64,000 bases of DNA from Phycisphaerales bacterium. GTDB taxonomy: Bacteria > Planctomycetota > Phycisphaerae > Phycisphaerales > UBA1924. Made by a program: the position numbers and the translations under genes. The number at the start of each line of letters is the position of its first letter. The first letter of the stretch is position 1. The DNA is taken from contig JALHOJ010000007.1 in NCBI GenBank assembly GCA_022843045.1, positions 1-64,000 of the forward strand. The letters run 5' to 3'. This document shows, piece after piece, positions 20,466 to 23,646 of the stretch. The notes beneath the pieces are model-generated. The model ran no database searches. It was given only the letters and a program-made list of their open reading frames with translations, and was not told where the DNA came from.

Positions 20466-21704
20466 TCACGCCTTCAGCGCCGCTGGCCCCAACGTCTGAA
20501 TCGTCATCTTCCCCAGTTCCCGCTTGGCCAAGTACGCATTCAGCTGATCCAGCGTCACGCCTTCGACTTCCGCCGCCGCCTCTTCAAGCGAGCGCGGCTT
20601 ACCCAGCCTTCGCACATCCGCCCCCAACGTCCCCGCCCGTGCCGCCGTGGATTCTCCGCTGAAGACCAGCGAGCTCTTGAGGCCCACCTTCGCGCGATGA
20701 AACTCTTCAGGCGTCACCTTGCCGCTGGGCGTCGTGATCCGCTCCAATTCACCCTTGAGCACATCCAGTGATTCCTGTGCCCGCTCGGGCGTCGTCCCGA
20801 CATACGCGCTCACGCCTCCGTACGTCTTGTCGCCCCGATACCCCGCCGCCACGGCGTAGCACAGCCCGCGCTTCTCACGCACCTCGCTGAACAGTCGCCC
20901 GGACATCCCCCCCGACAGCACGCCCACCGCAAGCTTCTCGAGCACGCTCTGTGGGCTCGATTCCGCCGGCGCGTCATACGCCACCACGATCTGCACCTGG
21001 CTCGCCCCCGCGTCCTGCTCATGCGCATACCCGCGTAGCGCATCGGCCCCCTCCAGAATCTCCGGTGCCGCCCCGCGCCATCCCGCCAGAACCTGTTCAA
21101 GCCGCGCCGCGATCTCGTCCGCATCCACGGCCCCCGCCACCGCGCACACCGCCTGCGCGGGTTTGGCAAACCGCGCCCAGTGCATCACCAGGTCATGCCG
21201 CGTCGCCGCCCCAAGCCCTTCCGCCGTCCCCATCCCCGACCGATTCAGCGGCTTGGCATGATGCCGCGCCCGCGCCAGCAGGCTCACCCGCTGCTGCGGA
21301 TCGTCCTTGAGCGACTCCAGACTCTGCAAGCACAAATCCCGGCACGGCTCCAAAGCCTCTTCTTCGAGCCGAGGCCGAAGCACCATGTCCGACAGCGGCC
21401 CCAGCACATCGACCATGCGCTCACCCACGCACGTCGCGGCGAACCTCATCGTGTACGTCCCCGCTTCGACATCGCGATTGGCCCCGAGGCTGTCAAACAG
21501 GTCGGCCTCCTGCCGCGAGTCACGCTGCCCCGACCCGCGCAGCAGCATCTCTTCGAGCAAAGGCGTAATCCCCTCGCGTTCATCGGGATCGGTGATGCAA
21601 CCCGCCGGCACCGCCCAACTGACCGACGCTGAGCGCACGCCCGTCATCTTCTCGACGACGAGCGTCATGCCGCAGGAGAGGGGGCGCACGCTGATGGAGT
21701 TCAT
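20466..21704 (-). CDS. M16 family (insulinase/pitrilysin) protein, HxxEH motif not preserved
   Basis: M16 organisation; expected HFLEHM site reads PLLEEM (GITPLLEEMLLRGSGQRDSRQEADLFDSLGA); SGRLFSEVREKRGLCYAVAAGY. Confidence 0.8.
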   Translation of the reverse strand: MNSISVRPLSCGMTLVVEKMTGVRSASVSWAVPAGCITDPDEREGITPLLEEMLLRGSGQRDSRQEADLFDSLGANRDVEAGTYTMRFAATCVGERMVDVLGPLSDMVLRPRLEEEALEPCRDLCLQSLESLKDDPQQRVSLLARARHHAKPLNRSGMGTAEGLGAATRHDLVMHWARFAKPAQAVCAVAGAVDADEIAARLEQVLAGWRGAAPEILEGADALRGYAHEQDAGASQVQIVVAYDAPAESSPQSVLEKLAVGVLSGGMSGRLFSEVREKRGLCYAVAAGYRGDKTYGGVSAYVGTTPERAQESLDVLKGELERITTPSGKVTPEEFHRAKVGLKSSLVFSGESTAARAGTLGADVRRLGKPRSLEEAAAEVEGVTLDQLNAYLAKRELGKMTIQTLGPAALKA

Positions 21705-21837: not shown

Positions 21838-21876
21838 TCAAAAACAGCGACGCGAGGCCGTTTCGGGCCTCGCGTC
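21838..21876 (-). terminator. Rho-independent terminator on minus strand
   Basis: GACGCGAGGCC-6 nt-GGCCTCGCGTC, with T-run on the minus strand (A-run at 21840-21844 on plus). Confidence 0.75.
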
Positions 21877-22017
21877 AGCGTTGTTCGTTGCCCGTCCGCA
21901 TTCGTTCGGCGTGCGAGCCCCAAGGCCTCAAGTCAGAAGCCTGCGATGGGCATCAGAAGCACGGGGAACGGGTCAAACGCGGATCGGTCGGGCTGAAGGT
22001 TGTTCAGCGATCGCAAT

Positions 22018-22080
22018 TTACTTGCGGGTCGCCTTCTTGGATGCCTTCTTCTTGCCCTTCTTTTTTGCCTTCTTGGCCAT
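22018..22080 (-). CDS. unannotated 20-aa lysine-rich small ORF
   Basis: ATGGCCAAGAAGGCAAAAAAGAAGGGCAAGAAGAAGGCATCCAAGAAGGCGACCCGCAAGTAA = MAKKAKKKGKKKASKKATRK; AAGGAG 7 nt upstream; absent from the ORF track. Confidence 0.65.
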   Translation of the reverse strand: MAKKAKKKGKKKASKKATRK

Positions 22081-22326
22081 TTCAAAACTCCTTGGTTCAG
22101 ACGAATCACTTCATGCAACGCAACGCTGCGCCGCGCGAGTGATCCTCGACACCGGAACATCTTATCGGAAAGTGCGCGACTTGTGTTGCAGAATTGTGAA
22201 AAAATGTGAACAACCGGTGGAGATTTTTCTCTCACGCCTCTTCCGCGCGCGCTTCGCACGCACTCTCGCGCACATTCATGCGCTCTTCGTCGATGTCTTC
22301 TCCACTCGCGCATCGCACGATGCGCT

Positions 22327-23646
22327 TCACCACAGCACGCGCACCCGGACAGTCTCGGGTACTTGGCGAATCTCTTCCACAACCTTCCGCGCGTTGGTCG
22401 GATCCACATCGAGCACCATGTACCCGACCTGTTCGTTGGTCCGCAAGTACTCCGCGCTCACGTTCGCGCCCAAGCCCGCGATCCGCGCGTGCACCTGTCG
22501 AAGCACGCCCGGCACGTTGCGATGGAAGTGCAAAATACGGTGTTTTCTGGGCGTTTCGAGGCTCTTTCCGTCCCCCGTCCCCAGGTCTCCGTCGCGCTCG
22601 TTCATGCCCATCAAGTCCACGTGCTGGGGTGGCAGTTCAACCTCCGGCACATTCACAGCGCCCGTGGTTGTTCCAACGTTGACGAACTTGATCAGCTTCT
22701 CCGCGACGTCCATCGCGATCGTCTCCTGCGCCTCTTCGGTGCTGCCGCCGATGTGCGGCGTCAGGATGACGTTCGGAAGTCCGCACAATGGACTCTCAAA
22801 CTTCTCCCCCTTCGACGCCGGCTCATGCGGGAAGACATCCACCGCAGCGCCCGCGACCGTGCCGTCCTTGAGCGCGGCAACCAACGCGGGCACATGCACC
22901 ACGCTCCCCCGCGCGTTGTTGATCAGAAACGCCCCGGGCTTCATCAACTTGAACTGCCGCGAACCCATCAGCCCGCTCGTGGACTCGTTCGCCGGCACAT
23001 GCAACGTCACGAAGTCGCTCTCCCGGAGCAACTCGGCAAGCGACCGCACCGCCCGCGCGTTGCCGAGCGGCAGCTTGGGCACGATGTCGTAGTAAATGAC
23101 CCGCATCCCCATCGCCTCAGCAAGCACGCTCACCTGACTCCCAATGTGCCCATACCCCACGATCCCAATCGTCCGCCCCCGTACCTCGTGGGCCCCGGTC
23201 GCCGACTTATCCCATTGCCCTGCATGCATTTGCGTGCTCTTGGGAAACATCTGGCGAGACAGCGCAATCACCTCCGCGATCGTCAATTCCGCCACGCTCC
23301 GTGTGTTGCTGAACGGCGCGTTGAACACCGGCACGCCCCGATCCCGAGCCTCGCCCAGGTCTACCTGATCCGTCCCAATGCAGAAGCACCCAATCGCCAA
23401 CAACCGAGGCGACGCCTCCAGCACCTTCCGCGGCACCAGCGACTTGCTCCGCACACCCAAGACATGACACTCCGAGGCCAGCTTCAGCAGCTTGGCCTCA
23501 TCAGGCGCACCCGACAGGCTTTCAACATGAAACCCCTCGCCCCGAAACATCGCGGCACCCCGCGCATGCACGCCCTCAAGCAGCACCACGCGAATCTTGT
23601 CCTTCGGATAGCTGGTCTTGGCTTTGGTTTCGATCTCACTCTTCAT
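22327..23646 (-). CDS. serA: D-3-phosphoglycerate dehydrogenase
   Basis: FCIGTDQVDLGEARDRGVPVFNAPFSNTRSVAELTI, GIVGYGHIGSQV, ACT domain HFHRNVPGVLRQV. Confidence 0.93.
   Translation of the reverse strand: MKSEIETKAKTSYPKDKIRVVLLEGVHARGAAMFRGEGFHVESLSGAPDEAKLLKLASECHVLGVRSKSLVPRKVLEASPRLLAIGCFCIGTDQVDLGEARDRGVPVFNAPFSNTRSVAELTIAEVIALSRQMFPKSTQMHAGQWDKSATGAHEVRGRTIGIVGYGHIGSQVSVLAEAMGMRVIYYDIVPKLPLGNARAVRSLAELLRESDFVTLHVPANESTSGLMGSRQFKLMKPGAFLINNARGSVVHVPALVAALKDGTVAGAAVDVFPHEPASKGEKFESPLCGLPNVILTPHIGGSTEEAQETIAMDVAEKLIKFVNVGTTTGAVNVPEVELPPQHVDLMGMNERDGDLGTGDGKSLETPRKHRILHFHRNVPGVLRQVHARIAGLGANVSAEYLRTNEQVGYMVLDVDPTNARKVVEEIRQVPETVRVRVLW

Follow-up and report, generated by a model that had tools for sequence, protein, structure and literature searches.

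A 20-codon lysine-rich gene of a Phycisphaerales bacterium, probably the minimal form of an order-wide histone H1-like gene

Between a serA-type gene and the gene for an M16-family peptidase, a 64,000-nucleotide stretch of Phycisphaerales DNA (hereafter the window) carries an open reading frame of only 20 codons, MAKKAKKKGKKKASKKATRK, and the question is whether so short a reading frame is a gene and, if it is, what its product would do. The initial annotation took it for a small gene with its own signals, encoding something like a minimal histone H1-like tail, and raised the possibility that the transcript is a dual-function RNA. The location of the ORF and of an AAGGAG ribosome-binding site (RBS) 7 nt upstream is exactly as described there, and Pfam matches bear out the serA–M16 intergenic placement, with serA upstream, M16 downstream and both genes, like the ORF, on the minus strand (Table 1); serA also lies near the peptide gene in a genus-mate (G002). 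The basic residues had been overcounted by one: 12 of the 20 residues, not 13, are Lys or Arg (11 K and 1 R), and the rest are M, A, G, S and T. On both strands of the 64-kb window this is the sole ATG-initiated ORF of at least 12 aa in which K+R make up 50% or more and K outnumbers R. The strong minus-strand terminator said to follow about 140 nt later is also present; its hairpin starts 140 nt past the peptide stop, ahead of M16. A CCGATA box upstream of the RBS, overlooked in the initial annotation, is a candidate promoter mark.

Table 1. Features of the peptide locus and its neighbours (window coordinates).
Feature	Position	Strand	Basis
Probable minimal H1-like peptide ORF MAKKAKKKGKKKASKKATRK	22018..22080	-	ORF reading (ATG at 22080; 20 aa plus stop); orthologues
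Ribosome-binding site AAGGAG	22088..22093	-	7 nt (TTTTGAA) before the ATG; orthologues with GGAG-type RBS
Conserved downstream promoter-like box TTCCGATA	22163..22170	-	CCGATA (22168-22163) 88 nt before the ATG
Upstream box position, 17 nt before CCGATA	22186..22190	-	Consensus TCAAG; degenerate in the window (TGCAA)
Predicted 5' leader hairpin (GGATCACT...AGTGATTC, inner GCGCA/TGCGT stem)	22103..22146	-	Single-sequence fold
Intrinsic terminator	21838..21877	-	12-bp stem, 9 G-C pairs, then T-rich tail CTGTTTTTGA (21877-21848)
serA-type D-3-phosphoglycerate dehydrogenase, upstream neighbour	22327..23646	-	Pfam 2-Hacid_dh, 2-Hacid_dh_C, ACT
M16-family peptidase, conserved neighbour, downstream in the window	20466..21704	-	Pfam PF05193/PF00675 (Peptidase_M16, M16_C)

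Because a protein search with the 20-mer alone gave only weak E-values, homologues were sought with DNA patterns in 163 genomes of the family to which the window belongs, each pattern being paired with its reversed form as a control. A degenerate pattern of the first 12 codons matched in 24 of the 163 genomes, and a looser one, combining an RBS, the start MAKK and further lysines, in 67; the matches to the latter were of two clearly distinct kinds, free-standing ORFs of 13-24 aa and proteins of greater length. The main pattern, CCGATA-N58-88-GGAG-N3-10-ATGGCNAARAAR, in which the last element encodes MAKK and codons past the fourth are unconstrained, matched in 111 of the 163 genomes, with a single match in all but one of them. 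None of the three reversed controls gave a hit. Among the 107 loci that were read, the product consists almost wholly of K, R, A, T, S and G at 100 and is not K-rich at 7 (HU and others); 97 of the 100 K-rich loci are complete, and the 3 cut by sequence ends were left out of the length classes used below. Of the 966 residues past codon 4 in the short forms, K makes up 575 and A 204, followed by S (50), R (47), T (46) and G (40), with 3 V and 1 M. Both the ORF and its RBS, whose conservation in close relatives had been suggested as a check, are kept in all three genus-mates. Three genomes (G112, G113 and G115; loci L137, L138 and L139) have a tandem duplication of the peptide gene: two ORFs of 13-16 aa, separated by about 95-101 nt, lie within a single transcript region, and each has an RBS of its own.

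Beyond the family, a narrower pattern of RBS, ORF and stop picked out 15 stretches among 85,462 species genomes. Fourteen come from planctomycete MAG records (Phycisphaerales, Phycisphaerae, Phycisphaeraceae and one Planctomycetaceae), and the fifteenth from a record titled Leptolyngbya sp. PLA1, on a 58,116-bp contig of the same size as contig C62 of family genome G113. A strict pattern of promoter, RBS and MAKK matched in three more families of the Phycisphaerales, where the K-rich products have 31-75 aa, again with no hit for the reversed control, and gave no match in the other sampled orders of the class. A single-copy H1-like gene is thus present in at least four families of the order. 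With orthologues, a fixed promoter spacing, an RBS, a terminator and synteny all at hand, the small gene proposed at the outset is almost certainly real and peptide-coding.

The complete orthologues fall into two length classes, one of 12-29 aa (56 loci, about 57% of the total) and one of 37-150 aa (41 loci) with KKATRKKA-type repeats. When neighbouring genes were called by a codon-usage score, the upstream neighbour was M16, dapB or c3 (a protein of about 175 aa) at 51/56 short and 38/41 long loci, and c2 (a protein of about 200 aa) or Amidohydro_3 lay downstream at 39/56 short and 24/41 long loci; at the 7 loci that are not K-rich neither arrangement was found. The M16 neighbours form a cluster of 60. 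M16 is divergent from the peptide gene in most relatives and codirectional with it in the window, where it is the next gene and where the strong terminator that goes with this locus is likewise found. On the M16 tree the short/long state changes 8 times, against 15.0 when shuffled, and on the amidohydrolase tree 4 times against 13.6, both trees being quick ones with many weak branches; so few changes imply that the state is inherited and has been switched only a few times. In genus g28, for example, the 17-aa form is found in all eight species. Short and long genes are, as read from their sequences and surroundings, one orthologous locus in two sizes.

It is the long orthologues that connect the locus to the histone H1-like proteins. 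The Pfam HC2 model matches the peptide locus of one genome (G015) at 48.1 bits without an intervening stop, that of a second (G077) at 45.4 bits when one stop is read through (26 for the protein alone), and that of a third (G073) at 31.1 bits, the cut-off being 40. In 20 sampled genomes, HC2 scored above the cut-off in 7 of 9 with the long form and in none of 11 with the short form, and 14 control genomes gave one match, below the cut-off; every one of these matches rests on composition. The window 20-mer matches no Pfam or NCBIfam model, HC2 (PF07382) included, and by the profile test it is therefore not a member of the Hc2 family. The likeness to an H1-like tail seen in the initial annotation holds instead by orthology: longer genes with the same synteny and promoter are Hc2/H1-like, and the window peptide is best read as their minimal orthologue.

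Comparison with known proteins is consistent with this assignment and also marks its bounds. Like Hc2 of Chlamydia (hctB, PF07382), the window peptide is a low-complexity polycation rich in Lys, Arg and Ala, and, as in Hc2, length at the locus is polymorphic through lysine-rich repeats. Hc2 ranges from 165 to 237 aa within C. trachomatis in this way, and BpH1 varies from 182 to 206 aa (PMC2848022). The window product, however, has 20 residues and most complete orthologues 12-29, far fewer than any Hc2; the pentameric repeats and the 165-237 aa of Hc2 have no counterpart in the window, KKATRKKA-type repeats occurring in the long orthologues only; and the promoter and synteny of the Phycisphaerales locus are distinct, with DNA binding there being only presumed. 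The resemblance to BpH1 (hist_H1_lk_Burk, NCBIfam NF038053) lies in lysine-rich repeats and size variation, but BpH1 is proteobacterial, has long forms only, and its model scores a long orthologue weakly, at 23.9 bits against a curated cut-off of 80. In the papers that we found, repeat-driven length change in Hc2 and BpH1 does not reach the scale of 12-150 aa. AlgP of Pseudomonas aeruginosa has an H1-like, lysine-rich disordered tail, a KPAA tail that binds DNA, and the protein spaces polyphosphate granules (PMC9239181); its 124-aa N-terminal helical domain and its KPAA repeats are both absent from the window peptide.

We therefore consider it likely that the ORF is the translated minimal form of an order-wide H1-like/Hc2-like gene and that its product is an H1-like polyanion binder, a reading that draws on conservation, single copy, promoter spacing, RBS, terminator, synteny, the continuum of lengths and the Hc2 similarity of the long orthologues. 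The peptide gene would be driven by its own promoter region, of the TCAAG-N17-CCGATA type, and the transcript would consist of a structured leader of about 75-80 nt, a strong RBS, the ORF and the intrinsic terminator. The product, an almost pure lysine polycation and disordered by composition, would bind polyanions without sequence specificity, neutralising or condensing them; these could be nucleoid DNA, RNA or polyphosphate. Transcription and translation are predicted here from the DNA, and binding and its physiological target from charge and from the Hc2 and AlgP precedents; since the H1-like AlgP associates with polyphosphate granules (PMC9239181), polyphosphate is a credible alternative target. 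The gene reaches 150 aa in some orthologues, with several lineages, that of the window among them, retaining only 12-29 aa. More tentatively, the H1-like gene may have changed repeatedly from one size to the other, encoding either repeat proteins of up to 150 aa or a self-sufficient unit of 12-29 aa, so that in short-form genomes, where no long Hc2-like protein would remain, a near-pure oligolysine with a nearly private two-box promoter would be the sole H1-like polycation; we hold this possible, though somewhat less probable than its opposite. The locus raises the question of how far an H1-like protein can shrink before selection ceases to maintain it. Its orthologues form a natural series that spans 12 to 150 aa while promoter and position stay unchanged, which makes the relation between length and function of lysine-rich tails testable. 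It also points to a class of peptide genes that the length cut-offs of annotation would be expected to miss.

Could the RNA rather than the peptide be what is conserved? The locus would then encode a small regulatory or dual-function RNA, a transcript of about 320 nt in which the structured leader is maintained and the ORF is of lesser importance. A terminator is present after 65 of the 91 orthologues, against 0.8 expected from dinucleotide shuffles, and its median distance from the stop is 102 nt. The ORF-free 3' region of about 100 nt would suit an RNA function. The window leader folds at -30.9 kcal/mol (z -2.9), and the average leader folds better than its shuffles (mean z -1.05, with z below -2 for 20 of 100), but these z-scores come from mononucleotide, not dinucleotide, shuffles. 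Alignments within clades retain leader hairpins with compensatory changes, at 7 of 24 pairs in genus g28 and 5 of 24 in genus g58, with weak signal in the genus of the window. Across the set, however, leaders cannot be aligned, RNAalifold of 82 leaders together gave no common structure, and the covariance models of Rfam 15 gave chance-level hits only, far below gathering scores. Moreover, the composition of the protein is kept while the product reaches 150 aa, of which an RNA function has no need. An RNA as the main product is thus unlikely, and of the interpretation first offered for this locus, the real gene and the H1-like tail stand, and a dual-function RNA is a possibility, with clade-specific hairpins kept in the leader. 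In one group of relatives (L084, L085, L093, L094, L124, L126-L128, L130 and L131), the GGAG RBS of the peptide gene is immediately adjoined by a small hairpin with perfect pairing (e.g., CGGACAATTGTCCG).

Alignment of the upstream regions revealed two boxes, CTCAAG and TCCGATA. At 90 of the 100 K-rich loci, the distance from TSAAG to the CCGATA downstream of it is exactly 17 nt (among complete loci 87 of 97, with 51/56 short and 36/41 long; 0/7 for those not K-rich), and the TSAAG/TCAAG box was absent from the search pattern by which the loci were found. Set against this locus type (TSAAG-N17-CCGATA, GGAG, MAKK), the window has correctly spaced CCGATA, RBS and MAKK elements and an upstream box that reads TGCAA, a degeneracy shared with its genus-mate G002. 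A scan for canonical sigma-70 promoters did not detect this two-box class, and an order-wide element of fixed spacing suggests a promoter class beyond the reach of such a scan; alternatively, it may serve as an activator site and not as a promoter. The two boxes are nearly identical to those of the FliA promoter of E. coli flgK, TCAAG-N15-CCGATAAT (PMC4183435, Table 2), which would make the peptide gene a member of the flagellar sigma-28 regulon. FliA-family models match all 163 genomes, 154 of them above the cut-off, and since every genome has FliA, its presence or absence is uninformative. The spacer, however, is 17 nt and not 15, the flagellin upstream regions of the genus of the window lack the motif, and enrichment elsewhere in ten genomes is not clear (25 hits against 9 in the control), 7 of the 10 hits with exactly N17 being the peptide locus itself. 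Sigma-28 control, unsupported by spacing, flagellin upstream regions or genome-wide enrichment, is in our judgement improbable. A TCAAG-N16-TCCGATA site also precedes genes for ParA/MinD-like ATPases in the genome of the window and in G002 (L175 and L176), at a distance of about 90-145 nt from the start. In the same genus (L183-L186), the flagellin RBS lies within an inverted repeat, GCAATCaCGGAGGATTGC, just before the ATG, which suggests that the RBS would be sequestered and flagellin controlled at the level of translation.

A very small, basic, single-copy and vertically inherited peptide might instead bind rRNA and not the nucleoid, as a ribosome-associated peptide like THX, which is of similar size. 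The peptide matches no Pfam or NCBIfam model, its gene lies outside any ribosomal operon, and a tenfold range of length with no conserved positions is unlike a protein that occupies a defined site, so that we give this alternative little likelihood. The terminator that comes after runs of Lys codons, together with dapB, a lysine biosynthesis gene, as a neighbour at 27 loci, calls to mind a leader peptide sensing charged tRNA-Lys and attenuating lysine biosynthesis or the downstream gene. However, dapB is divergent wherever it is the upstream neighbour, the downstream gene varies (M16 in the window, c2, amidohydrolase and others elsewhere), products of 37-150 aa from the same promoter are not leaders, and no codirectional amino-acid-biosynthesis gene comes straight after the terminator; orientation and variable downstream genes rule the attenuator out for practical purposes, and we regard it as very unlikely. 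A chance or decaying ORF would account for 20 residues of low complexity that tolerate changes of length, but with RBS, promoter spacing, terminator and synteny kept in about 100 genomes, and short lengths stable within genera, the odds of this are negligible.

Other proteins of the family bear lysine-rich extensions. HU proteins with a lysine-rich N-terminal tail (L143-L149 and L294) share with the peptide a MAKKTKKK-type start and occur in the same family of genomes, but they have the HU fold (PF00216), lack the TSAAG box and the synteny, and belong to a different locus. Lysine-rich N-terminal tails of the MAKK type are found on many DNA-related proteins of the family (HU, TopA and topoisomerase VI B-like proteins) and also on a chorismate mutase/prephenate dehydratase (all tailed proteins: L092, L098, L135, L136, L142-L155 and L168). 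A second small family joins a domain of about 40 aa (SSKGKKLYAVRD..GKFKDIQ.Y.RAH..D), for which two members gave no match in Pfam and nothing informative in NCBIfam, to a lysine-rich tail (L029, L032, L036-L038, L050, L053, L160, L161, L164 and, on contig C18 of the genome of the window, L004 at about 1354-1590). In that genome the protein has 78 aa, with the tail at its C-terminus, and is encoded beside flgI; in the relatives the tail is N-terminal.
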